NCBI GenBank assembly: GCA_963556145.1
Contig: OY744463.1
Coordinates: 7,750,001-7,814,000 of the forward strand
Origin: Hygrocybe punicea
Lineage: Eukaryota; Basidiomycota; Agaricomycetes; Agaricales; Hygrophoraceae
Reading direction: 5' to 3'
DNA length: 64,000 nucleotides
This document shows, in pieces, positions 6,438-62,299 of this stretch (positions are counted from its first letter, which is position 1; every line of letters begins with the position of its first letter). The position numbers were made by a program, and so were the translations under genes. A model generated the notes under the pieces. That model was given only the letters and a program-made list of their open reading frames with translations. It made no database searches and had not been told where the DNA came from.

Positions 6438-8479
6438 CATCATTTCGGCACTCCCAACACCATGACCCATTGAACATTGAGGGAGATGCTCTTTATCAAG
6501 TCCTCCGCACACTTGAAAGTACTAATCGTATGCCCAACAACGACACAGGAATCAGCTGGAATGTCATGCGGGAAATGTGGAAGCTGTTGGAGAGTCTTCA
6601 GCGTTGTAGCAAAGTCCGTTTTGACCTTTCGTCCATCGAACATGGGCACTATCATTCCTTTAAAACACAGCTATTCTGTATCCATGAGCACTTACCAATA
6701 TCGTGAAAAGAAAGCGCTGCCTTTTGATAGGATGGCGCTGCCCGACGAGTGAAGGGGCTGAGTTTCCCCGATTTGGAAGGCGATGCCTCTGTACAACCCG
6801 ATTTAAGTTATTCATCAAAAGTTAATATTAGACGTACTACTCGGAGATATGTCCATTGCACTTGCAGAAGTGGTTGCGAAGGACACAAAGTCCTTGAATA
6901 GTAGTGCTCGAAATTCCACCTCACTGATTACCATTCCAATTGCACCAATATATCGCTCCCACTCGCCTTGGAACAGTGCGCCCTGGATAACCTTGACAGG
7001 TTTCGTGTTACTACCCACCTTTGGTTCGTCCAGGTAACAGGATTCCACCATGATGACAGATGTGAAGATAGTTGGATCGCCTCCTCCAACAGCATGGAAG
7101 AAGTTTCGCCCAAATCCACCTGTAGAGATTCGGGCTGGATCATCTCGAGAAAGATTCGAATATTTGCCAGAGCGAACGAAAGTGATGGCGGAAAACAACA
7201 AACTGCATTATACGAAATTTAATCACTATAATCATTCTGAAGATATCGAAACAACTGACTCTCTGTTGATCTTATAAACGTTGGAAAGGATTTGGCTAAA
7301 CTCCGGATTGCCATTTCCAATGGCACTGGACCAAGATACCATTGCCGCCGCCCTGAATTCGCTTCAGTATATCATGGATATATTGAATGAAGTACATATA
7401 CATACTTGATGTTTACACACTCCTGATAGGTATCGATAAGCTGTGCATCTCGATTTCCAATATCGGACTCATCGACATCCGGAGATGGTAAACTTAATAC
7501 AGGATATTCATCATGAAAAGACTAGGTCAAACGCACCTGGTGATCCGGTGCTGAAAATAATTCGCCTCTCCATCATTGCTACTAGACTCTTTGTTATCAT
7601 CACTGTCACCAACCACCGCAGTCTTGGTAAAGGTAGATGTCATAGCTTTGGAGGTGCTGACATCATTCACGTGTAAGGAACGCCCACACCAATGCATAGA
7701 TAATTTCACAATACATACCGGAACACATCATCAGACCTCTTGGTCAAACTGAATTTGACCTTGGTATGAATCCTAGAATGTCCAGCATAAGCTAGATGTC
7801 ATCAAAGGCGGACAAGTCAACTCACTTGGAATCGCCGTCTTCATCATCATCAGCGTTTTCAAGGTCGTCCAATTTATGATGACTGGATTTCTGCTTCTTG
7901 GAGGGAGAATATGTATCACTAACGATGAGAACTGAATGATGAACGAGACAGATAGGTAATAACATGATATTTACATATCATTGTCGATGTCTATAATATT
8001 GGGCGATGGTGAAAGATAGCGTCGTTTTCCTCTGGAAAAAAAAGAAAAGCAATTAGCATCATAAGACATACATGTCATATTAAATGACTTACTTCGCTTT
8101 GGTTTCGGACAATTTCTTGGTAGGCCTAATTAACGGAATATATTAACAAAGCAAAGTAGAAATGAAGAATTCTACAAACGTTTTAGACGCTTTGGAAACT
8201 ACAACACTGCCAATGCTTCAAATGCTAATAATATCATCCTCTGCCTCCGATAGAGCGACACTGTCCAAACGTTAGGAGAATGTAACACAATTCGTATGTA
8301 CATACACATCATCATCAACCCATTTGGCAGCGGCATGTTTCCCCTTTTTTCCCACTGCTGCACGCCTGTTATTTATACAGATCAGTGACGGAACAGACAG
8401 GAAACATATGAGGTTACATAGGAGCCCTCGATCTGAGCTTTGAATTCGGTTTAGCGGTCGCAGACTTCTTGGGAGGCAT
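6438..8479 (-). CDS. Conserved mushroom-type hypothetical protein
   Basis: The start at 8479 reads MPPKKSATAKPNSKLRSRAP, a basic nuclear-like N terminus. Short exons follow (RAAVGKKGKHAAAKW, then Ser/Asp/Lys-rich pieces from about 8100 to 7530). The C-terminal exons at about 7201-6830 (AVGGGDPTIFTSVIMVESC, EWERYIGAIGMVISEVEF) and 6655-6438 (ADSCVVVGHTIS, SLNVQWVMVLGVPK, stop) are the best conserved part. As I recall, a pattern like 'pxDSCVVVGHTIS...lNvQWVMVLG' recurs in many Agaricomycete hypothetical proteins, but I cannot name a function. The inner exons between 7500 and 8250 are guessed from GT-AG pairs. Charged, disordered first half and folded second half. Confidence 0.5.
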
Positions 8480-21140: not shown

Positions 21141-21413
21141 CTCCCCCTCTCTCAAATATTCCTTTTCTTTCTGTGGCTTCTTCACTCTTGTCAGATTCTC
21201 GTCTAGTCTTCCGCAGTGACTCCAGAGGTCCTTCCCGCAGACAGAAATATCTTGCTTCTAGGAAGTTTCCGACAAAAGCCCAACGAAAACAACCAGTTTT
21301 CCAAGCGTTCGCAGTTCGGCTTTGCCCATGGCTGATGTCAATGCGAGCGCGAACGCTGAAGTTCCGACTATCGCTCTACCTCCAGCACCCCTCAAAAACG
21401 TAAATCCATATGA

Positions 21414-21700
21414 CTTGTGATTAAACAATGTACATCACAATGCAAAATCCGTTTAAACACATGTTGTTTAAACACACATTCATGAAGATTCCATTTATTC
21501 TCTCTGCTCCAATCAGCATGTTTAAACATGCAGGTTTAAACCATTTACACAGATTTAAATGCTTAAACAGACATTCTCTGTGCTCCAATCCATGTGTTTA
21601 AACATACAGGTTTAAATATACAGGTTTAAACCATCAGCAGAAATTCAGATGATTAAACAGACATTATCCAATGTACTGTTTAAACCGTTAAAACATCAAC
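21414..21700. repeat. Left terminus of KDZ element with GTTTAAAC cluster
   Basis: Terminal inverted repeat (21414-21458) followed by about six to eight GTTTAAAC or GTTTAAA sites and related 'ttaaacagacatt' repeats, up to the transposase stop. This pattern is typical of subterminal transposase-binding sites. Confidence 0.6.
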
Positions 21701-21701
21701 T

Positions 21702-24700
21702 CTAGATAATATCACCTTCCAAGGACTTTGTAAATGATATCAGGTCCTCGGCGCGCATAGCAGCTACATAATCAGACAAATGGCCCTCAGTCAATCTTAC
21801 ATGCATATATCCAGCCTCGTCAAGTTTCTTCTTGCAGTCATTCTCCATTCGTCCATACATGTCCGCCTTTTGCCTTGCATAAGCAACATGGCCATCCGAA
21901 GAACCTGTCCACAAGACTGAGAGCTGGGACCAAGCTTGTGTCATCCTCTTGAAGCTCCTTATAACTCTTAGAAACTCTGCAAGTTTTTGCTCGACCTGTT
22001 CCTGCCACCGTTGCATTTCGGCTTCTGCACGAAACCACTGCACACGGTCACCTGTGTGTTGAAGCAAATTTATGAGTAACCATCTTACGTTTTGTAACAG
22101 CCTTACCTTCAGCCTCCCACTCCACCATCTCTTTCGCTGACATTTTACCCCAACCCCCCATGTGCCAAAGCCATCCTTCCTTTCCCTCTTGTGCTGTCGG
22201 AACTACTGTCATATTAAGCATACACTTTGAAAGAATAAATACGTCCATACTGGTGGTACCACTGATAAGGTTTCCATCTTGTTTCCTAGCTGTAGTCTTT
22301 GCTATTATGGTTGAGCATTACCAAATGCTATACTGATGAAATTGTCATTCATTACCTTTATTTCGTCGACTCATTTGTGTCCCACTAACTGAAATAAGAT
22401 GTGTGAGCAATGCCCAACAAGAAACAATGACATCGGCAACACTCACTTGGCAACAGTTCCATCTCTCCTTGATTGGATACTTGGCTATCCACATGCACCC
22501 CGTGCAGGGTTAGATCACCCGTACTGGCCATTTGTCCATGCATCTGCCACAGCTTGCCATCTGTCCGACATGAATCACCCAAACCACGGCCGCGCTGTCT
22601 TGACTTCATGAAAGTGTCCTCGATGGTGAGAGGAGGAAACGGTGACTCGGGATCATTGCTGTCAACAGCCCCAAGCAATATCAGAGCAAGGTGGGCAGAT
22701 GCATAAGTTTCCATATGATGATCTCGTCGACTCTGGGCATCTCTAATATAAGATCCTGACTTGGTGTTTTCAGCCTGTCCACGTGCATTCTTGCGTTTCT
22801 GATCCTGGATTGCCGTCAAGGTCTTGACTGCAGATTGTATTGCACGTAGCGCATCATATGCTTCGCCTTCTCGCAACTTTGCCTCTTCGATACCAAGCGC
22901 TATGGCCTCGACGGTCTGTTGCTCTTCATGCTCGAAATCTGACGGTAGGAAGAGCTTCTCGTGTTCAACCTCACATGAACGTTGTCGAGCCACTGCATCT
23001 CCAGCCTTGGGCATCAGAAGTCTCTGATCATCACGCCATTTCATGATGCGCAGTCGCAACTTCCCTCGCCGAGTGCCAATCTCCTTTTCAAGTGACGCAA
23101 GGTGGTGTTCACGATCCTCCGCAACTGTTGCTCTCAGTTTTCGTCTAAATACAAATTATCAGCAGTCAAGCGAAACACCACTGAAACGTTCAGACTCACT
23201 GTGCATCCTGAATTCGAAGACCCTCATTAAGAAAGGCAGCGATGGAACCTTGGGGAATGTCAGTCTCCGAGAACTTGGACTCCTGTGCAAGCATATGCTG
23301 ATAAATTGCTGCCTGAGAAGGCACTACAGTATACGTGAGTTTGTGAGTTCCAAGTGCTATCAATGTTACGAAAGACTCACCCTTTGACTTGCAATGTCTG
23401 TATACACTCTCCGTCTCTTTCCCCTTTTGCCTGGGCTTACGATCCATTTGATCCCATGCGTCTCGCTGTTCTGCATATAAAATACATAGCCCTCGAAAAT
23501 GATCACGCTTTTGAATGTATAATGCTTTAGCAAGGTTGAGGTCGTGTAACAAAGTGGACGCTATTGCCACCAGTCAATGAAGGTAATGTTAAAGTTCGTG
23601 AGCCACTCACCCATTTTCATTGTCTTGAGCCAGTTCCAATCGCCGTGGTGGTCGATCAATGTGTCTTGGCGATGGCCATTGTTCATTTGTCTGACATGAG
23701 GACCAAGTTGATTTGCTTCAGGCCAGTAGTGTTCAGCTGTCTCCCCGTGAAAATGGCCAACACAGGGCATATATGCGGTTGCAAAGGTGTAGAGACACGT
23801 CTCTTTGTGCCCCTGGACATGAAGGGCTGGAACTGACCACCACATCCTACGCACAAGAGGTGCCATATCTGGAAAGAACTTCTCAAATCGTTTGATGACG
23901 TGGACCGAGTATGAGCAGTTGCTGTCGTAGGAGCAGATATGGTCAACGTCTGCCTCCTCATCCTGAAGGTTGATGTCTGTTTCCTCCGGTGAAGACCGTT
24001 GACGAGCGCCATGTGCAAGCGCAAAGTCAGTATTCGCAAATCTGTTCATAATGTAGGGTAGCGAGTGGAGGAATTGTAGTGAGACACTGCCACATACCTT
24101 TCACCAAATTGCATGTCAACTGACGACCAGATGAAGACGTGACTGCATTGACAATTCACTGTCCCAGTGATATCCATATTCTTGAATTTCTTCTTATCTT
24201 GTTTGTTGACGGCTTTCAGATATGTACATGTTGATTTCTTAACGCCATGTAACCTAATCAATAAAGAGTTGCACGTTCATATTGTATAATGGTCTAACCT
24301 CCTCCGACTTTGGGACATTCCTTAAGTATTCCTTGTAGAGATCGTCCTTTGGGAAATACGCATTTCCCTGAAAAAGCGATATGTCATCGGGATCACTGTT
24401 CTTCTTCATCTTGTTGCACTGGAAGTTGCCGTCAAGGGTCTTCTGTGATTGGTTGAGATGCCTGTGGCATCTCCTATCAGCAAACATATTCGTCAACACT
24501 GCAGTGGGTCCCACCTAAGCTCAAATGGCGTTGGTTTCCATCCCTGCTCAGTATTGAAACCCGGCTCTGGGCATGCTGGGCAGTGCACGATAAGGTTTCC
24601 CGGTCTACGATGTGGTAGCACACGATCGATGCCATGGGCTTGTCCAAGACGCTTGCGAAGGGTGAGCCACCGCCAAACTCGGACAACACGGAGGAAATTC

Positions 24701-25649
24701 GCATAAGGATCCTGGAGAATAGCATGAGACGTGAATATAATAATGTCTTTAAACGCACTGGTACGTCTGCTGTAAACGCGTTGTCCGTCAGGCGCCTGAG
24801 AGCTCCAAAGTAATCGTAGGCTGCCTTTTTCGATTCTAGATTGTGAAGATGGAACTCTTGGAGAACCTTGAATGTGAAGGCAGTCTTCGTGTCGCGAGTA
24901 GTTGCAGGAAATAGCCGAGCCCGCATGAGCTGCTCAACCTTCGTACTAGCCCCAAGGCAGCCACAGACAGCCAGTCGTGTGGCGTGAATGCCATTAGTGT
25001 CAACAACAGTGAAGAGAATATTGCTCTTGGGGTTGGGGCAACGAGCTCCGTTGTGACCAAGGTATATGGTGAAACCCAACGATGAGATATCATGGCGAAT
25101 GAAAAAGCCCCGTTCAGCATCCCAAACTTCAGCCCAATGGAACGGCAAGTTCTGGTGCGCTTGAATAAAACAATCTGTGCACGATGCACAGTACTGTGTA
25201 CAATCGTGGCATTGTGTTGTTCGGACGCCATTGTTGCATGAGCAAAGCGAACCAACTTGGGGATCCGCCTCAAATTCGATGATAAGCCGTAGAAAATTGT
25301 CAAAGTGCCCATCGAAGTCCTCCAGGAGCCGTGAATTCTAGTAGTAGAGTTGTAGTTATACTTTTAAGCGCTAACATACAGAACAAACCTGTGTCTGCTT
25401 TCTAGGCAGGTCATCTTTGTCATCCATCAGGTCAGGCTGGTGGCTGGCATCATCGGTGATCAGGGGAGAGAGCGTAGTGATCCCCGTGGTACTCGAATCG
25501 GATCTGTGTGTCGTGGTGCGTACTTCCATACCAGAATCTCCAACGGTCCGAAAGTGTGCTTTATGGACGTGTGGGTTTCTAATTCTTGCAGCCTGCCGGG
25601 AAAATTGCAGTTCCTCTTCTTCCACAGAAGCTCTCCGTTTTTGGCTCAT
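21702..25649 (-). CDS. KDZ-family transposase with CxC2-type cysteine cluster
   Basis: ATG at 25649 (MSQKRRASVEEEELQF), many exons, end at 21702. The second exon has the cysteine cluster CSCNNG, CHDCTQYCASC, CF, H and HWAEVW (about 25265-25130). It is followed by LGHNGARCPNP, VVDTNGIHATRLAVCGC and LFPATTRDTKTAFTF, the typical order of the CxC2 domain in KDZ transposases. Next come KRLGQAHGIDRVLPHR and CPACPEPGFN, then DGNFQCNK. The catalytic block has SSVDMQFGER (about 24100-24125), CSYDSNCSYSV (about 23920) and GHFHGETAEHYWPEAN (about 23740), which supply the two Asp and one Glu. The C-terminal part (GDRVQWFRAEAEMQRW) is also family-typical. No clear disabling mutation was seen. It would cut and paste DNA in the nucleus. 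Confidence 0.85.
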
Positions 25650-25859
25650 GTCTCTGGGCCTAATATTGAGAATGATGAGTATGGAACAAACACCACCCCA
25701 GTCAATCACGGATACGCACTAGGGATGGGCAATCAAGTGAGGTGACTGAAATCAATGGGTTGAGAGTACGATGCAAAACGAGGAACAATAGACTCAACAG
25801 TATGTGGCTTGAGGTGGGTAAACGGCGATCCTTAGATAACATGGCCACGGCAGTGCAGA

Positions 25860-27210
25860 AGAAATGACGCAAAGTCCAATCTCTTGTGAGAGGGAGCAAC
25901 AGACGCAAAGTCTAAGTCACCGCCAACCAGGATGACGCGAAGTCTACTTCCTGAGTGTGCATAAGGAATACAATGTCCACAGCTTCGTCACCTGGCGAGG
26001 TTTGTATTGCCCTCCCAACCTCGAGGGGTGGACAGCCATGTCCATTGACGTGGGTCTGGCCCTCCCGAGGTAATGAGTGCACACCCAAACTTGCCATTTT
26101 CCCTGTTACGGTTGTTCGGGAGGGCGCGCGACGGAGGTCATACGGTTCCTGTGGTTGCTGGTGCTCCTTCCCGATTCTGATGATCCAGGGCAAGACCCGG
26201 AAGGCGAGGTCAAGGGTGTCGAAGTGGAGAGTCTCGCACGTTTGCGATGAGACGATGACGGCGCATACGTTGACGAACCAGAGTTGCCCGATGCGCGAGA
26301 GGCTGTTTTGCGGAGTCAGTGAGTGGAATGTTTAACGGTTGATGTAATAGAATACAAATAGCGTTGGTGGTTCGAAACAAGTAGAGTCGCAGGACGACTA
26401 CAATGGGGTTGCGAGTGGACGAAGGAGAGGGCTTAAGGGTACAGGGAGCGTGTAGAGTTGTATTGTAGCGACGCATACCGATGATCGCGCAAAGACGAGT
26501 TCTAGAATGAAGTGTTCGTCAGTAGTGAATGGATATATAGATAGAAATGAGACGACACGAAGTCTAATCTCCAGCAGAGCCAGCAACTGACGCAGAGTCT
26601 AAGTTGCTGCCGTGGCCCATCCAGATTGACGCAAAGTCTAGATCCAGGATGTGCCAGTGCACGAGAATGAGTTTGACACTTACCAGCGACGGTTGGCTCC
26701 TCTGAGTCGAAGACATAGTGAGTGACTACAAATGCTACATGACCGAATCCGGATTACAAATTCTGTATAAGCCTTTTTTCGTCAACAAATCAGCCCGTCG
26801 ACTTCTACGTTTCCATTCAAGTAACAGTAAGTCATACCCGTCTTATCCCAGTCTTCATACCCAGAACTAGACTCTGTGTCATTCTGGTGGAGTTGAGACT
26901 TTGACTTTGCGTCGGTCTCGACTCACAGCGAGAGATTTGACTCTGCGTCGTCTCTTGCACGTACCTCGCAAAGCTGTTCAACATAACTCACAATCATTAT
27001 TCTAGGTTGCCTTGTGGTTCACCAGTACGCCATGTCCCGCGGCATCCAGTGCAAGACAAGTTTCGAGGTGGTAGTTTAACGGTTAGTCCTTTTATTTCAT
27101 CCAACTTTGTGCAATCCCGGAATTCGACTATGCGTCGTTCCAGCAAAGTAGGGACTTTGACTTTGTGTCAGTCTTTACTCACCGCGAGAGATTAGACTTT
27201 GCGTCGTCTC
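25860..27210. promoter_or_regulatory. Divergent array of twelve GACTTTGCGTC motifs (six per orientation)
   Basis: Six GACGCAAAGTC-type sites start at 25866, 25902, 25934, 26554, 26589 and 26628. Six sites in the opposite orientation (GACTTTGCGTC type) start at 26870, 26903, 26939, 27126, 27159 and 27195. Spacings of 32-39 bp recur inside clusters. Several sites are preceded by GAGAGATT. The array fills the space between the divergent transposase and the 27234 gene. Each gene therefore sees six copies in the same sense orientation upstream of its coding part. They may be promoter sites, transposase-binding sites or RNA-leader elements. Confidence 0.6.
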
Positions 27211-27233
27211 TAACCCTCTTCCTTGAATATTAG

Positions 27234-29502
27234 AGTGACTGCTGTCTCAGATTCTGCCGTTAAGTTCATTGGTCCTCAATGTCCATCGATCCGCTGGAAC
27301 TCCTTCAACAACGCCGACCTAATGGTACAGGTTGTGTCTATGACAAGAGCTTATACTTATTCATATCATCCTACAGAACCTATAGGCCCATTTGATGCTC
27401 GTGTTGCTGCAATCATAGATGGTTTCCAGCCCGGAGTAAATGACATGATAATCACATCACCCAACATGGACATCATCTATAAGCCTCCATTAGGTAGACG
27501 CCTGGTTCGTTTAAGAAATGATTGCCGCTACGCAGACGACGATTACATGTTATGGCCGCAACCTTTTATGGAGGAATATTGCTGGTTGCCCGTTATTCCT
27601 CGCTGTCCCGAGGATCCTGCTGATCCACTTTCGATCATGTGGTGGAATCCCACTGCTGCTGACTTTATCCCGACAAGTCGGCAATTTGTAGAGGGTCTTG
27701 GTAAGCTTGAAATCTCAAAGGCGGTGAAGTTGCGGGTTGTGTGTGAGGCTCTTTTTGCAAGGATTATGGATTACCAAAAATCAGGCGGAAATAATCCCGT
27801 TGTGCTGAATCTCCAAGTTGCTTTGCGCCACTCAATATGTCGTTTGGAATCTCTCACGACGTTTTACAAGGAGATGGTGTTTGGTGTCACTGAAACTCAA
27901 TGTTGGTACCTGGAACTAGTCGCTGTCGTGGACTATATCACGATTTTCAAGCCACGAATGGAAGGCAGTCTCCCGAAAGCCGAGCGTGTGGCTTTTGTGG
28001 TTGGCGCATTCACCGAGAACCCGCAATATGTTCAGGCCGCCTTTGATGCTGGTATTCCTGTGTGGTTCATGCGACCTCTTCAAACTTTATCTTTGAGTGT
28101 GAACATTATGTCTGTTACTACCCTTCGATCTCCCGAAGATTTTCTCACAATGACCGATTGGACCGAGAGCCCATCATTCCCTGTCATTCACAATGGGTCA
28201 AACAACGTTGAAAAGGTCAGGCAAATCCACAATTACGCCCGCACACGCTTCCAGTACCCAGACCCTTTCGCTGTCATCGACGATCCATTTCTTGTAGGAG
28301 GGAGTGTACCAACAGTTACAGCAACGGTACCAATGGCTGAGCTCAAACGCCCTCGCACGGTTAATGGAGAGAGTGTACCGATGGTTACTGAGAGAGTATC
28401 AGTGGCCGAGCCCGAACACCCTCGCACCGTTAAGGTCACCAAGAAAGCTCGGAAACAGTGCAGTGCCATTAGTTCAGGTATATTATCAAGTCTCTTCATG
28501 TATCAATGCTTATCGCTTCCTGCAGTGGGAACCAAGAAATCTAATTCTAGCTGGAAGCCCGTTCAAGCCAAGTTTCGAGACCCTGACAGTGACCTCATCC
28601 CTCCGTCAATCTTCACATGGGCCAATGCCCTTCTCCACGTTAATACCGAACCTTCTCGACTGAAGGCTCTGTGTAAGAGTAATCCACACGATGGACACTT
28701 TGTTTTCCCTGATCCCAGGCTCTTGGTGGGCCCGAACACCGAGGCAAGGCAAGCCTTGTACCTCGTCAATTGGTTGGACCAGCGCCAACTATGGATATCT
28801 CGCGTATCTCGTGCAGACTCTGCTGCTCGAGCTTTGTCAAATCAAGAGTGGCGCGACTGTCTATCAGGTCTATGTTCAGAGCGTAACAAACAAATGACCT
28901 CGACTCGGGCTAGCCAACGCCGTGCCGACATCATCACACTGATCGGCCATTTGTACAAGGGGTCCGGTTTGGTTGCAGACATGCCCCGTACCCAAATCTT
29001 TTGGAAAGAGCAACAACTGATGGCGCCTGACGGGATGTTGCCTGATCGCAGGATTGTCCAAGAGGTGCTGTGGGAGCTGTATGAGCTTAACTTTCATTTC
29101 GAATTCCTGGCCCTGGATGGCCGAGCCCATAAACCCAGAATGCCCTCAGGGATCGAACAAGAACCAGAGTTTAGCACCCGCCAATACAAACTTATGGCAT
29201 GCTTCATGGCATCCAACTCTGGTGACCCCAGTTTCCTCGTAACTCAGATCCCTTCGAAGAATGGTGGTCTCGCTGCGGACGACTGGCGTGAGTGTCTCCA
29301 ATATCTTTTGGCGATGCACAAGGTAATGAGAACTTGGGATTGCCAACCACCAGATGGGTTTGAGCTTGGGTTTGGAGCCGTTGATACTTTCACAGAGCCA
29401 AGCGTCTCATTGCTTGAAGAAGCGATTGCCACTTTCTACACACAGACTTTTTTTGATTACTTTGGACGTGCGGCCACTATTCCTCACAAACTCCCGTTTT
29501 AA
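27234..29502 (+). CDS. Large hypothetical protein of KDZ element (second gene)
   Basis: The open frame of about 755 codons opens at a splice acceptor (attag, 27229-27233). An upstream exon is likely, perhaps from the ATG at 27031, and the first in-frame ATG is 27322. It ends at TAA 29500-29502. The N-terminal half has IIDGFQPGVNDMIITSPNMD, YMLWPQPFMEEYCWLPVIPR and VGAFTENPQYVQAAFDAGIP followed by VWFMRP. I associate such blocks with repeated hypothetical proteins of Agaricomycetes. The middle (about 28260-28470) is a variable Val/Thr/Glu linker with two diverged repeats (VPTVTATVPMAELKRPRTV type). A 48-nt in-frame stretch with GT-AG ends (about 28480-28527) may be an intron. No catalytic motif is recognised. 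It lies between the transposase and the third gene inside the same termini. Confidence 0.65.
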
Positions 29503-29917
29503 CTTTTAGCTGATGCCATTGTTTCTCCCCATCTTCGTGTAATGTTCTCGTCTCGTAATGTGACTATTCATGACTTCTCATGTGTGGCATGTGAATTGTC
29601 TGCTCACGGTCATCTTTCACCACAATGGTTTGCAACTAACGAAGATGAAATGAACTGATGTCTATCTTCGTCTGCAGAACTGCCTGTAAGTAATATTATT
29701 TGCTTCGTGACATCATCTACTGATTCAAGGTACATTTGCTGTCACATTACAGAGGGAACAATAACAGTTACAACAGTGCATGCAATGTCTGAAGGAGGTT
29801 TAAACAAGCGGTGTGGCTTTCTTCGATGAGTGGCCTTCACATTGACTTCAAGGTCAGTTCATATAAAGGTTCTGAATCATTCCTGTTTCATCAAATCCAC
29901 ACCATCCTTTCGTTACT

Positions 29918-32093
29918 ATGGTCGGACGCAGATCACAGTTTACTCCTGCTCAGGACGCATATATTAACAGCTACATGCAAGCATTCGAGGCCAAGGTGTA
30001 CGAGCTTGATCCTGACTTGAAAGGAATGAAGGGTGCTTCCTTAACAAGGTGGAAGCAGGACACTGCGGAAACTATCAAGTCGTCATCTCTGTTTCAAGAC
30101 CAACTGCTTTGCGAAGGGGATGTGACTCTGACGACCTGGACCATGGTATGTCAATTCACGTCATGATTCAGGGGATTGATTGGTTCTTCAGCGAATCATC
30201 CGCAAGTTCACAAACCGCTTCAGCACTATGAAACGAAAAAGCCAGTCCACGTCAAACACTCATGGAGATCAATTTTTTATCAATCTCTCCTCAAGTGTTA
30301 CTGGGCGCCAGCTCTATGAACAAGAACGAAAGAACGAGATCAATACTGAGGCTGCGAAACGTCGAAAGGATGCTGATACTGATGGGGGGCATGCAGGGTT
30401 TTACCAAGTCGTTTTGAAGGAGATGTGGGAGGACGAGGAGGATCAGCAGGCATATGAGAAAAGGGCTGAGGAAGTTGAAAGTGATATTCCTCGGTGTGCA
30501 TTTCTTGATCTTTCCTATGGCTATGATTTAACACAACCGGGTCACCTTAGAAATCAGAAAGAGTTTATGAAAGCAGCATGGTTTGCCCTCAAGACGCTCT
30601 GCCAGAATGGTAAGCTTGGCCCTGCCGAGATGATGCTGTTCTTCGCATTCCGTGATGAACATGGCGATCTCGATAGTGGCGTGTAAGTGCACCAACCGGC
30701 CCTCTGTAGTGCCACACCTAATAAAATGACAGAGTCAATGCCCATTCAGTCCATAACAAGCTTGATATGAGATCCCAGCTCAAAGACTTCACAGAGCATT
30801 TCGAAACGCCATGGTTTCAGTACGCCGAAAGGGTCCTCCCTCGTGAGTTGCTGCATGAACTTGGACACGCTATGTTGCCTTAATCAATTCACCAGGACCC
30901 AGCATCAAGAGTGATGACTCCACAGACCTTCAAATTCCTCGTAACTCTGCAGGAATACCTTTGTTCCCTGCTGTCGAGTTCAACAAGATGATTTTGGGCG
31001 ATATTCGTGCCATTCTGGAAAAATACTTCAGCACATTGTGGTGTAAGTCAGTCCAGTACAGCCTTCTGCTGGATTATTTCGAGTGATTACACCTAGGTCA
31101 TACCTGGCCAGCCGATCAGCATTTTGCTGCAATACCTTGGGCTGATATTTCCGTTAACCCTTCCGACTATTATGATGTGCAAAGTTTCATCGTCCCAGTC
31201 AAACTGCAAGCGCCAGAGCTTATGTCACTTGCCCACATTATCATTCTCTCGGAGTATCTTGCTTCGACAGCTTCCAGAGACACTGATGAACAACCATTTA
31301 TGTTCCTGCAGAAGGCTGAGATTCTTAGATGCATTGGTGACCGTCAGGCTGACATTGAAGCGCAGCACACAGCTGGTGATGAAGAAGACAGCGACGATGA
31401 TGACACAGAACTTGGGGCCATTGCTGCTGGAGTGCACGTCCCACTTGTGCATGAGTTGCAGCGCAAGGACATGACAAGTGAGGCACCGGTGACAAGTGTC
31501 AGTGAGGCAGAGGATGGTGAAAATGCAGAGGAGAAAGTGGTAAGTGAGAACAATACTACAGAGAGGGTGCTGATGCAGAATTGCAGCATGAGAATGCCAC
31601 AAGTGAGGCTGCGGGGACAAGTGTTGGTGAGGCAGGGAACAGCAAAAACGCAGGGGAGAAAGTGGCAATAAGTGAGAGCCCTACTGCCAAGGAGACACTG
31701 AGCAACGGCAAGGGTGGACAGGTAGGACATAATTCGGAGGAGATTGAATGCGAAAGCAAGAAGTCGAAGACACAGAGAGGCAGGACAACTGGCGGCATTC
31801 TTTTCAGTACACGAAGGACACGGTCTTGCGTTGCTGAGAACTCACGAAAGACACGATCTTCTGTTGCCGAGAACTCACGAAAGACACGATCTTCTGTTGC
31901 CGAGAACTCACGGAAAACACGGTCTTCTGTCACCGAGAACTCACAGAAGACACGGAGCGCTCATGGTACGAGTGATGGGACTGTGACTCGTGGGACAAAG
32001 CGCAAAGCGGCAGGGATTCAGGAAAATCTAGAGTACGCTATCTCCTCCTTTTCCTGCAGCAGCAGCAGAAAAACTGAACTACGGGTTGTTTAG
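29918..32093 (+). CDS. Hypothetical protein of KDZ element (third gene), repeat-rich C terminus
   Basis: ATG at 29918 (MVGRRSQFTPAQDAYINSYM). The N terminus, ending ASLTRWKQDTAETI, looks like a small helical DNA-binding or homeodomain-like region, but this is inference. Introns interrupt it at about 30146, 30685, 30842 and 31042. Central exons encode CAFLDLSYGYDLTQPGHL, PWFQYAERVLP and FIVPVKLQAPELMSLAHIII. The last exons are acidic and low in complexity (EEDSDDDD) and hold two diverged copies of an about 115-bp unit. They end in about five copies of an 11-residue repeat, SRKTRSSVAEN (31810-31960). The function is unknown. The charged tail suggests a nuclear, DNA-associated role. Confidence 0.6.
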
Positions 32094-32199
32094 GGGTAGG
32101 CCAAGCAGCAAACGTGCGAATACACAAAATAAACGCAAGACGAGACACTGTATGCTTTAATCCTGTGTGGCATTAACCTGCTAACTTTCCAATTGTGCA

Positions 32200-32440
32200 G
32201 GTGGCTAGGATTGTGTTTCATCCGATTCAACAATGTTTAATCTGCTCAATGTATTTAATTTAAATCACTTCAACCATGTGTGTTTAATCCACTGAGCTCT
32301 GAATTTCGGATTCCATTAAATCCAAGTTTCATTACCCACTACTTAAATTACTCCTGTTTAAACACATAAAATTAGCTGTCTGTTTAAACAAAGTTCTGTT
32401 TAAACTTGATTTGCATTATAAAGTACATTGCTTAAGCAAG
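32200..32440. repeat. Right terminus of KDZ element with GTTTAAAC cluster
   Basis: Repeated GTTTAAAC, GTTTAA and TTTAAAT sites (32220-32405) run into the inverted terminal repeat that ends CTTAAGCAAG at 32440, mirroring the left end. Confidence 0.6.
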
Positions 32441-32984
32441 ACTCCTAGGGAGGCTGCAAAAACCTTGTTAATTTACCACCTACCCCTCAGGGTTCCCCAG
32501 TACACGGTGACTTAGTAAGAGCGACATACTACGCCAAGGACATCTTGCTATCTGAAGGTCATTCTCCGTCTACTTTATAGCCAGACAAATTCTAAATTGC
32601 AACATTACAGGCTGTGGCACCGCATCTGCGACCAAAGTGTTAGTTCCTGTCGACAAGCTCTCATTAACAGTATGTTATTTATTATCATGCTAGATAAAGC
32701 CTTGTCCTTGATACGATGAGGCACATCCATCGTGCATGTATTGGGGAAACAGGAAGTGAATTACCCTCTGATCAGTTGAAGCTGATACTACCTATCAGGG
32801 TTAGGGCAACGCACAAAGCCAGTTCTGCGACATCGTCCACACAGTATCCCGACATGCTAACCCGCTAGCAGATGTCATCATCAGCTTTGAGACGCATCAA
32901 TATTCGTCATGCAAAACAGAAACACTAGGGTCAACGTGTTATCTGTACGCAAAAGTCAAATTTTGATTTGTAATTCACAAACTA
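32441..32984. other. Intergenic, nothing recognised
   Basis: This lies between the KDZ element and the repeat-protein gene. No coding frame or repeat structure was recognised. Confidence 0.4.
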
Positions 32985-55799: not shown

Positions 55800-58165
55800 A
55801 TCCACCTGAATTTTGTAATAATTTTGAGTCATCTGTGGGTGTCGAAGTGGTTGATGTGGGAGAGCCAACTATCATGTGATGTGATTCCCCTTGGTTGAGT
55901 TCTTGACAATGCATTCTGAAATGAAATGAGCCAGTTTACCAGCTCCATGTAGAAATAGCAAGATCCAAGCCCAGTATGCAGTGAAAATCATATATTGAGC
56001 GAGAGAAATATACAGTCCTCAGTATGCAACAGTGAAGTGCTGAGAAAAATGTCAGTTATGTAGAAGGTTGTCTTCACTGAGATCCTGAATAATTGTGTCC
56101 AAGATGTCCTCATGATCACTCTTTGAGTAGCAAAGCAAGAAGGTCTACACCCTCATCCAGTTCCTGATTGCCCATGACAGCCTCAGGGGTAATCCAGCTC
56201 TGTGTGAAGCTGAGGTGATCCTTCTTCAATGTCACTGGATGCAAGTCATAGCATTTCAACTCAAAATATCTTAAAGTTATCTTGAAATTAATCCATGTTA
56301 CTTTAACACATCATTGTAAGCAAAAGTTTAAAAACATTTTGAATAATTTCTGTTTATTTTAAAGGAAGTTATCATAACAAAATGTTGAGTGCTATCTTAA
56401 AAGAAATTCAATTTCACAGTCTTTGAACATCTTTCTTTTTTTTATAATTTTTATCATATCTTTATCATACCTTTTGAAGAAATATACCAAAAATATGCCC
56501 TATATATCTTAATGTTTTCTGCAAATGACATGTTGAAATAATATGGATTAATTTTCAAACAATTTCATGATATTTTTATTAGAAATATTATAGTTTGCAT
56601 CCAGTGTGTGAACTTCAACATCTGCAATGCTTACATTAGTGTAGGATTGATGCGGTTATGTTTCTTGGTATCCATCTTGGTGCTGAATGAGAAAACCCAT
56701 TCAGTGGGTACTGCAGATGCCTGAATAGGAAGGTAGTCCATTGCCATCCTGAAGAGTGTAGGGAATATTGTCCCATTCAGCTGTTTACAGGGGCTTTGGC
56801 ATTAATGAATGCACCATGTGTTCTTAGAATCATGTACCTCCCAACACTTAATGATGTTGATTGTGGGATTGGAACTGGGGCAGTGATGTATGCTTGGAAT
56901 ACCTGCTCAACTGTTTGATGGTCTTGAATGTCAGGGCCAGCAATGACATGTCGTCAGGTAACCCATACTACTCTCCAAGGGTTACATATGCTGGAGTTTG
57001 ACCAATGAAATCAGTGTATGAAAGGCCGGAGGTTGTTACAAGTCCCTATAAGGGAATCGTTCTATATGGTGGGTTTTTCAACTCAGGGTCACACTCTAAT
57101 TTTCCAAGCTGTGGGAACAATTGTTGCAAACTGTGGGAACAATTTTCAAGCCCTGTGAATAAATTTGAAACTGTGTGACTTTGTAACTGTGAGAATTTGT
57201 TGTCTCAAATGAGCAAGAACAATACAGTCACCAGATCAAAGGTGCCAAGTTGGGAAAGGGTAGTCTGCTGCTAAGCCGACTGCTTCATGACAATAATCGA
57301 ATTTGTTAGTGTAATGTGCACATTATGACATATAGGTGAGTTGAAAACCTGTCTGAACAGTACTGAGAGTTCTGTATTGTCCAACTAGTATCCCTGCTGT
57401 GTTCTGAGGAATTGCCAGTGCAATATAGACTGGATGAACCAGATATTATATCTTTGTCTACAGATACATATAATAGCTATGTCCATTGGAATCACAAGGA
57501 ACAGGTTGAACACTGGTTTAACTGGCCGGTTCAACATTTTTTGGCACAAAAATAATAGCAGAAACAAAAGTATGGATAGTTGTTGGATGTGCATTATGTG
57601 CTGCATTTGACCTCCCATATTGCAGCAGAGAAAATACAAGCAGAACTATCAACATCGAGAAACTATGGAGTTCACACATTGGTACCTCAGATGCCATTTC
57701 AATGTATTCATTGAATGGGCTCATAAGGGTGAGGTTTATAATTTGTTGATATTTTATCAAAGGACATGAAAATAGTACAATAATGCAGTCAACTGCATAA
57801 TGATTCAAGATCAAGACAAAAGGACAAGGAACATAATTAGTTCAAGAGAAGCTCCAATCAGGCCAGAACAAACTAATATGATGGGAAAGCAATTATTAAA
57901 TAGCAAAGCATCATATTTATGGCAGGATGGGAAGAAGTGAAGGTTGGGCCAAGATACAATCCAATGGTATCAATGCAGGAACATAGCAACATAGGCTTCT
58001 CAGTACAGCAGTGAATTTCGTTATCAATTTAGATATAAAGGAGTAAATATGCTTGTTGCACCTGCAGATTTCGTCCAGTTAATATGACACATCCTTGAAC
58101 AAAAGGTTATGCATCACATATGAGAAGTAAAGGTAGTTTGATTGAATTTGTACAATGAATCGTAA
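55800..58165. other. AT-rich intergenic region
   Basis: No convincing gene in 2.4 kb. The CK1 pseudogene would have its upstream exon(s) here, but none was recognised. 56300-56600 is very AT-rich. A copy of the dispersed repeat also found at 16340-16562 lies at 57035-57230. Confidence 0.45.
57035..57230. repeat. Dispersed repeat, inverse copy of 16340-16562
   Basis: It begins 'caagtccctataagggaatcg' and contains two 'ctgtgggaacaatt' units and 'ttgtaactgtgagaatttg'. All have counterparts on the other strand at 16340-16562. Confidence 0.6.
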
Positions 58166-58197
58166 CTAGTGGGGTGTGGGCCATTGCTTTGCATGGC
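58166..58197 (-). terminator. Helitron 3' terminal hairpin and CTAG end
   Basis: Minus strand: stem-loop GCCATGCAAAGCAATGGC, then ten bases, then CTAG and a T outside. Spacing and order match the known Helitron 3' signal. It lies about 70 bp after the stop of the last coding block. Confidence 0.75.
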
Positions 58198-58234
58198 ATG
58201 TTACTCATTCCTTTTTTTAGCAAGAGAACAAATA

Positions 58235-59880
58235 TTAAGAGTGAGCATATATAAACAGTACAGCATTATTACCATTACATGACAATAAATTAATATTTGA
58301 AAAGTCATCTATATCACCTTCATTAATACAAATTGATCTGGTTGATATACCATCATGAAACCATACCATACTGTTGATGAATATGCGGGCAGTAAAATGT
58401 GCATCATCATAGTACACAATTCCTCTCAATGTGAAAGCAGTGGATATGTCATCAATTGACAAGTTTATAACTTGACTAACTATTAAATTCTCAATAGAGT
58501 CAACTGTAAACATGATTAGAGGTGGAATTTTGTTAAATGCAATAAATTTAGTAATCTCTCCCAACACAATTGACATTTGTGCCGTTGTCTATTAACTATG
58601 ATTTGAGAAAGACATGCCGAGATTGTTCCAGAAAATAAATATGAACAATGAAAGATAGCATCACATCTATCATTTTCCAGAATGGTTATGTTTTCACAAT
58701 TCATACATTTACAGCCGTTTTCAGCGAGTATTGGAAACACGATTTCTAAATGGTGGCTGTGCATTTCTGAATAAGGAAGCTGCCGAGAACCCGAGGTTTG
58801 ATGAGTATATTACATAAGATAGATGTCATCCATATATGGCTACACCACATGACTTAGCGTGACAGACAGTAAAATGACAATAGATAATGGTTAAGGACAA
58901 TAGAAAAAAAGGTGTTGCAGAGAAAGATTTAGAGGGCACTTCAAAAGGGGTTGTTGTATTTAAAACCATGATTTTCTATCAGGTGAAGGAGGAGGTTGGT
59001 AGTTTAATCAGGAGAAGCTGGTGTGATGCTTTGTGACGTGCTGTGTAACATTGGAACTGAATACTTATCTCCTCCTTCATCTCATAGAAAATCATGGTTT
59101 TAAATACACCAACCCCTTTTGAAGTGGCCTCTAAATCTTTCTCTGCAACACCTTTTTTTCTATTGTCCTTAACCATTATCTATTGTCATTTTACTGTCTG
59201 TCACGCTAAGTCATGTGGTGTAGCCATATATGGATGACATCTATCTTATGTAATATACTCATCAAACCTCGGGTTCTCGGCAGCTTCCTTATTCAGAAAT
59301 GCACAGCCACCATTTAGAAATCGTGTTTCCTATACTCGCTGAAAACGGCTGTAAGACAAGTTGAAGTCATTGGTTCATTTGCTTTCATTATATAATGGGC
59401 CAAATCACTTATGGCAATGCCAACTTGACCATAAGAAAATATTTCAGGTTTATCTTGATGTAATAAATGTCTGATTGTATTTCTAACTGTTTCTAAATCT
59501 GTTGTGTTATTCTTTGATCATTTGAATCCTAAGCTTAAAATTTGTAATATTTCATTGATGCTATTGAATCTTTTGTTCCAACTTGATGCATCTTCATTCC
59601 ATATTGCTAGTAATATTGTAAAGAGTGAATCATAAGCACAGCTCCAATCTTGCACATCTCATATAAACCCTTTTGGTTCATTTAATTCAATAGTACTTGT
59701 TTTTCGTCCTTTTTTCACTATGGAAGATGAACCTACAACTTGTTGTAATTTTCGTTTTTTATTTTGCAATACATTGGCTGTGGAATTTTTATGAGTGACA
59801 GTGATTGGAACAGTTCCTTTTGCAGGAACAAAGTTGAGGTTTCTGAAATCTGCCTTTGATTTTTGTTCATAGGTTTAATT
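58235..59880 (-). pseudogene. Helitron cysteine-peptidase-like domain, interrupted
   Basis: After the helicase stop a GT-AG intron (GTAATT ... GGCAG, about 59897-59850) could fuse this part to the helicase. The frame then reads NLNFVPAKGTVPITVTHKN and a basic linker, then DWSCAYDSLFTILLAIW (about 59620-59655), a candidate catalytic Cys block. A Cys cluster CKCMNCEN and, near the end, LRGIVYYDDAHFTARIF and MVWFHDGIS (58355-58410) follow. The latter resemble the His and Asp/Asn blocks of papain-like ubiquitin peptidases (USP/OTU type). Two TGA stops (near 59648 and 59520) and a 640-bp fold-back insertion break it. OTU-type peptidases are known in some Helitron relatives. The assignment here is inference from motif order. 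Confidence 0.55.
58710..59353. mobile_element. Fold-back MITE with CAGCC ends, TA target
   Basis: Near-perfect inverted arms of about 280 bp (58712-58995 and 59067-59351) surround a 70-bp spacer. The ends read T-TA-CAGCCGTTTTCAGCGAG and its complement, with TA on each side. Removing the element and one TA joins flanking codons in frame (TSTCL to KCMNCEN on the minus strand), confirming the borders. Confidence 0.8.
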
Positions 59881-59882
59881 AA

Positions 59883-62293
59883 TTACCATGGAGAGGGCTG
59901 TGTTGTGTATTGATTTAGTTGCTCTGTGGCTTTCCATGCAATAGCATGATGAATGTTTTTTGGAATATATGACTTTCCTTTCCATTTTCTAAATCGATCA
60001 ATGATAGAATTTTGCTGATCTCCCTTGACATGGTCTGATAATAGTCCTTGATATTTCGGTTTGGTAATCTCATCAAGCAGTTCTAATTCTCTGAATTCTT
60101 GCCTGAGATATCCAGAAGCACCCCCAGTAATTACTTTAGGATCAAAAATTTGTATGATGATAGTTCCTGCTGCAGAAGCACTTTTTGATAAGCAAGTATA
60201 ATAGGATTGGTGGTTTTTATGACTACTGAGGTCGACTACATTGTTAGGACGAGTACGTCCTTGACATGCATAATCAGTCATTGCAAAATTAGGCAGTACC
60301 AACACTTGTTCTCTTGATAAAGATATCACATCATCATTGGGTATTATGGGTAATGAGCACATGGTGGAAGTGACATGTTTTGTAATCAGCACCACATTTT
60401 CAGGAAGTCCTTCTATGTTAATTTTTTTTGGAGGATTCAATAATCTGACAAATAAAGTGTCCAGTACAGTTTGTTGCTCAGGACCTATTGTACTCTGCCA
60501 ACCCACAACTATGCCCTCTGCTCCTTTGGTAATGCAGCACTCTGTTGCATCATTGTTTCTCAGCATCACTGGCATGCCTACACATAAGTCCAATCTTCCT
60601 GGTATATGATCAGAGGACGATGCATGTGGTTGGCTCCAAAGTAGCTTTTGGAGTGAAGGTTCCAATATCTTTGTGTGTCGAATAGGATCCAAAATTGTTG
60701 ACATGTGATGAGATTTTCTTTTGCTATTGGAACTAGTAGGATCATTCCATCTGTCTATGGAATAGAATGATGTTAATGGTCTTTTATTTTCAGCAGCAAA
60801 ACGTTGAATACCAAGTTCATTGATTTTGTCTTTTTGTGCATTCAATGCAGTTACAACTGATACATTCCTGAATTTCTTTTGGGCTAATTTTGGATCATTT
60901 GGACCTTTTCCTGCGATGCGAGTACGAAGAAATGCAATATCTTCTTGAGTACATGCTTTGTATCTCATGTTTTCCAACGCCTGTCTCAGTTGGACATCTT
61001 CTTTTGACTGATTGGTTTGTCTCATATTTTCATGTAATATAACAACTGTTGTAATCTGATGCCAAAGAGCTTTGCCTATAGCAGCTTCCTGATTTGCTAT
61101 AGTTTGACTGGAATTGATTTGGACACCAACGGTTCCGGAGTACAAAGGAGCACCACTCATAGCTGGTGGAAGTTGGCCAAAATCACCTGCAAATATCATA
61201 TTAATGCCACCAAAGGGTTCATCATAAACATCACGTGCTTTTGCACACTGAGCACTGATTTTGTACATATCTCTGCAAGATAACATTGACACCTCATCAA
61301 TGAAAATGTAATCCACACCATCAAGATTAGCATGGACTTGTGCAAGGGAACGAGATGAACCCCCATGAATAATTCCCAGAATTGAGTGATATGTAGATCC
61401 ATTGACAAGGGCAGCAGCACCACCAGTTGGTGCAAGAACCACAAACCGATGATTTTCGTTGTGTTTACCAAAGAAACTAGTCAATGCTTTGATGACTTGT
61501 GATTTCCCTGTGCCTGCCATCCCACCAAGATACATGCGTAGCTTATCAGAACTGTTAATCAAGGTAGAGTGATTGGCAATGATATGAAATGCTCTCTTTG
61601 GGTCAGTGTTCAACTTGTAATCCTTGATAGTTACATCAATAAGATGACGATCAGCTCTGTTTGCAGGAATAAACATATGGTTGATGTATGCTGCATCCAC
61701 TATCTTGACATCATTATATTGAAAATTTCCCAATTTATTTATGGTTGCTGTGTTTGTTGGTAAATTTTTATTTCTGTCATCGATGATTTCCTTTTTCTTT
61801 GCAAGGACTGCAGTTCTCCACAATTTTGCTGATTGTACTACAGGTGGTTCTATAGGTATCAATGGTCCTATATCTGGGGTACCATCAATACAATCATCGA
61901 GCCACCCTGACCTTTTCAAAGTTCTTTCAGCTATCAGCATTTGATCTTTCCTCTTTTGTCCTTTTTGACCAAGTTTCAGGAGTATTTCTGTGTCATTATT
62001 GTCTTCATCAATATTGTTGTTGAAGTCATCGCCATTAAATGCAAATTCAGCATTGTGCATGTCATCCAGTTCATCAAGACCATTTGAAGTCACCCATGAA
62101 TACCTTACATCTGCAGTATTATTCTTCTGATGTTTAGCAGAGAAATCATCTCTTGCATCCAAACACTCATACCGCAGACCAAAGTATTTCATGATCTCCA
62201 GCTCTCTTTTAGAAAACTCATGGTCCATAAAAGCATTATCCCATGTTTGTAATTTACATTTGAGTTCTTTGCCACTTCTCCATGGCTTGAAAA
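59883..62293 (-). CDS. Helitron Pif1-like helicase, N-terminally truncated
   Basis: The open frame is about 800 codons with no in-frame stop. It starts in Helitron sequence at about 62293 (PWRSGKELKCKLQTWDNAF), upstream of the first ATG at 62228. Motifs include GMAGTGKS (Walker A, about 61520), FIDEVSML (Walker B, about 61300), FAGDFGQLPPA (about 61180), GAEGIVVGW, TDYACQGRT and YYTCLSKS (about 60200). These are superfamily 1B Pif1-type helicase motifs as found in Helitron RepHel proteins. The HUH nuclease part, expected about 700 residues upstream, is absent. The helicase would unwind the donor strand in rolling-circle transposition. The intact frame implies recent activity or recent truncation. 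Confidence 0.85.
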
Positions 62294-62299
62294 ACGTTG

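Follow-up and report, generated by a model that had tools for sequence, protein, structure and literature searches.

What is the function of an 11-bp motif that occurs twelve times, six times facing each way, between two divergent genes of a KDZ transposon of Hygrocybe punicea? We analyzed this locus within a stretch of 64,000 nucleotides, here called the window (C3:7750001-7814000 of the 92.2-Mb genome in 42 contigs). All twelve motifs counted in a preliminary description were located, on the minus strand at 25866, 25902, 25934, 26554, 26589 and 26628 and on the plus strand at 26870, 26903, 26939, 27126, 27159 and 27195, and the spacing of 32-39 bp that it gave within clusters agrees with our measurement. 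Five of the copies are exact, five carry one mismatch and two carry two; the latter (26554 and 26870) still keep GAC-N5-GTC. The array consists of four modules of three motifs each:

25852..25958, minus strand: hairpin module D, cores 25934-25944, 25902-25912 and 25866-25876
26541..26655, minus strand: hairpin module C, cores 26628-26638, 26589-26599 and 26554-26564
26855..26965, plus strand: hairpin module A, abutting hairpins with cores 26870-26880, 26903-26913 and 26939-26949
27110..27217, plus strand: hairpin module B, cores 27126-27136, 27159-27169 and 27195-27205

With at most one mismatch, the 64 kb contain 11 matches, ten in the array and one isolated at 6882. Only 0.77 are expected, and 11 matches were reached in none of 100 shuffles. 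In the motif scan of the whole genome that had been suggested, the exact 11-mer occurs 111 times versus 16 times for the reversed control, and among 100 exact matches listed, 82 fall into 15 element clusters and 18 are isolated. A looser motif pattern gave 447 genome matches versus 221 for its control. The array is present in the window and in all ten other young copies of the element that were aligned. It is absent from the closest further KDZ family detected in this genome (three 4.5-kb leader stretches), so that the hairpins are not a general feature of KDZ elements, and the comparison with related KDZ elements proposed earlier holds for the young copies only. Near another KDZ copy, five 24-nt repeats of the GATGGTGACGTGGC type were observed about 150 bp apart (L030:595-1241). 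The motif array is real and clusters in this element only, and most likely, with considerable confidence, it is an array of RNA hairpins.

The element which carries the array has the following parts:

21400..32456: whole KDZ transposon, 11,057 bp, ends located by comparison with ten other copies
21393..21399: left target-site duplication CAAAAAC, identical to the 7 bp at 32457-32463
32457..32463: right target-site duplication CAAAAAC, matching the left flank
21451..21685: left subterminal array of seven GTTTAAAC octamers
32356..32405: right subterminal array of three GTTTAAAC octamers
21702..25649, minus strand: KDZ transposase gene, conceptual 13-exon model of 1,102 aa with CxC2 and KDZ domains
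27279..29502, plus strand: partner gene with one short intron, encoding 723 or 725 aa
29918..31671, plus strand: third gene, conceptual 516-aa model

Twenty 10-kb stretches were fetched for the ten other copies, whose main blocks are 99.3-99.6% identical to the window; some shorter blocks at 98.4-99.2% adjoin a tandem repeat or an interruption. Both ends fall at the same places in 8 of the 10; the remaining two are interrupted or extend past the fetched stretch. Of the 9 copies with both flanks readable (window included), 6 have the same 7 bp on their two sides, and three have unlike flanks. Comparison of the element ends revealed no clear terminal inverted repeat, as the tips differ; a loose inner similarity, judged by eye, lies within the first 45 bases. 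The termini read GT..TG on the plus strand and CA..AC in the transposase sense. The subterminal octamers, of which one further copy lies internally at 29798, are likely to be binding sites of the transposase. A leader piece of 576 bp has 17 matches in the genome, two of which seem to belong to a single interrupted copy, and the partner reading frame has 14 full-length matches, three with one stop each.

Several further observations concern the copies. An open frame (31581-32093) extends past the third-gene model; a 33-bp minisatellite within it (31810-31974) codes for basic repeats of 11 residues. In two other copies the element is shorter by 33 and 35 bp overall (11,024 and 11,022 bp), with a BLAST break at the minisatellite. 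On contig C6, two copies lie about 17 kb apart in opposite orientation, and GGGTGCT flanks one of them on the left and the other on the right, which resembles an inversion by recombination between the copies; the remaining two flanks are unlike. In the copy on C34, the element sequence adjoins stretches about 96% identical to positions 58164-62298 of the window, as if another mobile family had inserted there. Differences among the eleven copies over 25642-27288 are mostly C>T or G>A and most are confined to a single copy, a pattern as from cytosine deamination.

Conceptual splicing of the minus strand gives an intact transposase of 1,102 aa with the KDZ transposase domain (PF18758; E 2.3e-24 on 23561-24049) and the CxC2 domain (Pfam; E 2.1e-35 on 24477-25148). 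Among the best 120 of 166 relatives, most belong to Mycena and other Agaricomycetes, and the best has 55% identity with 93% of the query covered. The preliminary description had spoken of divergent KDZ genes, which is right for this gene and not for its plus-strand partner, in which no Pfam family was found at E≤0.01 (one match below the cut-off, E 0.22). The two lengths of the partner result from two possible donors for its short intron. It is related to unnamed proteins of Grifola, Marasmius and Pleurotus (27-29% identity) and to metagenome proteins with 88% and 65% identity over about half its length. The partner protein is a member of an Agaricomycetes family without known function. Its N-terminal part was modelled with a helical bundle of uncertain kinship, and no RNA-binding fold could be recognised in this protein. 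The tested pieces of the third gene have no Pfam match, and ahead of this gene a hairpin was not found. Each of the two divergent genes has six sense copies of the motif upstream, as described before.

What these copies share becomes apparent from their surroundings. Each motif is a GAC-N5-GTC with complementary bases around it and caps a hairpin, whose tip is a GAC/GUC helix closed by a UNYGY loop. Beneath this helix come a U-N bulge, with an invariant U and any base in second place, and then an outer stem. The outer stems differ between hairpins and yet pair, for example CCAGAA/UUCUGG, CAGCAACU/AGUUGCUG and AGUAGGGACU/AGUCUUUACU. In the minimum-energy structures of the sense 33-mers, the GAC/GUC helix and the five-base loop are present in all twelve cases. 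The loops are UUUGC (5), UCUGC (2) and UUUGU, UUCGC, UUCGU, UCUGU and UAUGC (1 each); positions 1 (U) and 4 (G) do not vary, and position 5 holds a pyrimidine in every loop. A GAGAGATT prefix, previously taken to be common to all copies, is found in only one hairpin per module, the third; 26939 and 27195 have it exactly, 26554 and 25866 in shortened form. The common feature is the hairpin.

Module A folds as three touching hairpins (z -4.2 in sense), so that the motif spacing of 32-39 nt corresponds to the size of a hairpin. The sense fold of module B is slightly better than shuffles (z -1.7), and module D as a whole is no better than these (z +0.85). Among the single hairpins, 4 of 12 have a z below -2. 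In the search of the element (21400-32456) against Rfam 15 at E≤5, no match fell into the arrays, and two matches elsewhere were below the gathering scores. All twelve motifs have the potential to pair as the hairpin.

Run with no structure supplied, RNAalifold arrives at this hairpin, and double changes are seen in 6 of 9 pairs. With the structure given, 86.4% of the cells are paired versus 69.4% in shuffled alignments, and the covariation is 0.577 versus 0.252 (as high in 0 of 500); pairing falls to 29-48% when the partners are slid by 1-3 columns. For pairs 2-7 of the outer stem, 66 of 72 are paired, compared with a mean of 43.3 of 72 when the 3' flanks are dealt among all hairpins; 66 was reached in 0 of 20,000 such shuffles, and p remains ≤1e-4 with any one module omitted. 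The 14 other GACN5GTC readings in the window (both strands) have a mean of 3.1 of 6 pairs, and at least 5 in only two of them.

These values cannot be read as twelve independent cases. When 3' flanks are exchanged within the same module place, 61.2 of 72 still pair (p=0.03; places 1, 2 and 3 separately 0.16, 0.08 and 1.0). As the hairpins are paralogues and pairing within a place is only weakly above chance, about three independent stems are present. What is strongly supported is one tip on about three unlike stems, whereas compensatory change inside one stem type is weakly supported. In the young copies, 10 of 52 variable sites lie in hairpins, which make up about 23% of the columns, so there is little less variation there, and an older copy has decayed evenly, with no clear difference between hairpins and elsewhere.

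A shared origin of the modules is also the basis of a reading in which the array is a mutational by-product, one module having been duplicated and its pairing maintained by template switching with no function. Modules A and B contain a 96-nt duplication at 79% identity, the pairing within a place exceeds chance only weakly, and the hairpins vary about as much as other parts in young and older copies; template switching is described to create and repair stems (PMC8794818). On the other hand, the same bulge, helix and loop sit on three differing stems, the apical tip is kept in module stretches that are otherwise 73-81% identical, and G-U pairs would not be expected from template switching. We regard such a by-product as very unlikely.

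Among the 17 non-Watson-Crick cells of pairs 2-7, 11 are G-U, 2 are A-C and 4 are others (one-sided p=0.011), which favours the sense RNA of each downstream gene, even though this excess is not independent either, the hairpins being paralogues. It bears on DNA hairpins, cruciform or single-stranded, that would serve transposition or replication. The stems are inverted repeats in DNA as well, and the antisense strands of the modules also fold (z -2.65 for A, -1.40 for B, -3.08 for C and -0.09 for D), but the ratio of 11 G-U to 2 A-C indicates the sense strand and the arrays occupy the centre of the element rather than its ends. In addition, KDZ enzymes are held to be of the cut-and-paste type, and 7-bp duplications are present here. 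Hairpins acting as DNA are highly improbable.

The preliminary description had left the choice between DNA sites for a regulator and a repeated RNA-leader element. As double-stranded DNA, the motifs would be sites for a transcription factor of the element or host, or for the transposase, in a two-way promoter, with the flanking complementarity being incidental or the site being a long imperfect palindrome. The arrangement of six motifs each way around a short centre with a TATA-like box suits this, as does a second TATA-like box between C and D, and arrays bound by protein would be normal in an element that already has subterminal GTTTAAAC arrays. However, such sites have no need of a fixed asymmetric core with differing self-complementary flanks (66 of 72 pairs in the true arrangement versus 43 of 72 in the shuffled one), of a loop that varies as UNYGY around its fixed positions 1 and 4, or of a single orientation towards the gene kept at every site. 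We consider DNA sites unlikely. The RNA reading is favoured, because a stem-loop with conserved bulge and loop has a variable but paired stem, and all twelve copies are sense to the gene.

Candidate transcript signals are found on both sides:

26678..26683, minus strand: GTAAGT, candidate 5' splice site, about 30 nt upstream of module C
26827..26832, plus strand: GTAAGT, candidate 5' splice site, about 30 nt upstream of module A
25660..25663, minus strand: AATATTAG, candidate 3' splice site just ahead of the transposase ATG (25649)
27230..27233, plus strand: AATATTAG, candidate 3' splice site, with branch-like CTAAC at 27210 and start codon at 27279
26684..26826: compact inter-array region, candidate two-way promoter, TATAAG at 26766 (plus strand)

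The minus strand of the 11-kb element has a single GTAAGT and the plus strand has five, of which two besides the candidate are donors in the coding models. Since GTAAGT precedes the first hairpin by about 30 nt on both sides, the arrays may sit in first introns, and the signals suggest candidate introns of about 1.0 kb (26683-25660) and 0.4 kb (26827-27233). In the predicted folds of these whole introns, the plus side retains 5 of 6 hairpins and the minus side 2 of 6. Eleven ATGs (26740 to 25842) precede the minus-strand start codon. Nine of them lie inside the candidate intron, which is compatible with an intron or with transcription beginning further downstream and is awkward for an unspliced leader; an ATG at 26716 is upstream of the candidate donor. 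Between modules C and D, the minus strand carries a TATATA (26539), so that a transcript could start after module C; this would weaken the RNA reading for this module.

The same signals could also point to a cis-acting splicing structure without a dedicated protein, where the hairpins would bring the ends of a long first intron effectively closer together or cover its branch site, with the result that the intron is removed slowly and both genes stay low. GTAAGT before and AATATTAG after both arrays are symmetric, and the CTAAC branch-like site overlaps the end of hairpin 27195. Structure alone, however, gives no reason for bulge, apical helix and loop to be conserved twelve times, and as the coding introns of the gene models measure 41-61 nt, introns of 0.4 and 1.0 kb would be unusual here. 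This explanation seems to us distinctly unlikely.

We propose instead that the motif forms the upper part of a short RNA hairpin with a bulge. Six copies (two modules) precede the transposase in sense orientation, and another six precede the divergent partner gene in the same way. The U-N bulge, the GAC/GUC helix and the UNYGY loop would form a recognition surface, while the stems would be free to vary. A fixed tip on free stems, repeated and common to two transcripts, would have the look of one protein's binding site. One RNA-binding protein, encoded by the element or the host, may bind the arrays in both pre-mRNAs and thereby set the output of transposase and partner gene together, probably by way of removal of the hairpin-bearing first intron or use of the long leader. 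Here we infer transcription through the arrays, splicing, the binder and the direction of control. That the array acts in cis as RNA, is bound by one putative protein and co-regulates both genes has, in our view, about an even chance of being right. Counting against it are the paralogy of the hairpins, the poor folding of module D and of the minus side in their context, the near-equal variation of the hairpins among copies, the possible transcript start after module C, the failure to recognise an RNA-binding fold in the partner protein and the absence of hairpins from the other KDZ family. A bolder version is that the transposon encodes its own RNA regulon, one of its proteins binding the hairpin in first introns or leaders and switching both genes; this is a tentative idea and rather doubtful. 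Comparable feedback is known in retroviruses and RNA phages, and to our knowledge not from eukaryotic DNA transposons.

In the usual view, what limits DNA transposons is transcription, small RNAs or a single spliced intron. If the proposal is true, the twelve-fold hairpin tip would be a countable and mutable RNA switch that sets the transposase level, and could serve as a handle in the search for its binder; a role would then also be suggested for the partner protein, which comes from a family without known function. Bulged hairpins like TAR, the IRE and the phage coat-protein hairpins are each recognised by one protein, and some of them are located in leaders. They usually occur in one or few copies and, compared with the hairpins described here, differ in bulge, helix length and loop.

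Based on its features rather than on a tree, the element can be filed as a KDZ element that is Kyakuja-like. With the Kyakuja group as described in the main text of PMC12730594 it has in common the KDZ transposase, 7-bp duplications, the lack of clear terminal inverted repeats and extra genes. CA..TG termini are reported there for two Laccaria families, whereas the termini here are GT..TG. Further differences are that no TET/JBP match was found in the reading frames tested, that the partner gene belongs to a family without known function, and that hairpin arrays are present; the word "hairpin" is absent from the main text of that paper. For the loop, the coronaviral SL2 offers a likeness. This leader stem-loop has a YUUGY loop, the 3' pyrimidine of which flips out (PMC7925004). 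Six of the twelve loops here fit YUUGY and all twelve fit UNYGY, an analogy of loop shape only; SL2, as described there, is a single stem-loop with a 5-bp stem, in contrast to an arrayed 3-bp apical helix over a 2-nt bulge. The third intron of the Drosophila P element is controlled by an exonic silencer with pseudo 5' splice sites, to which PSI and hrp48 are bound (PMC7776569). According to this account, the output of a transposase is set by RNA-binding proteins on its own pre-mRNA at an intron, which is what we propose for the present element, where twelve structured hairpins lie ahead of two divergent genes, the binder is putative and the introns are represented by splice signals.
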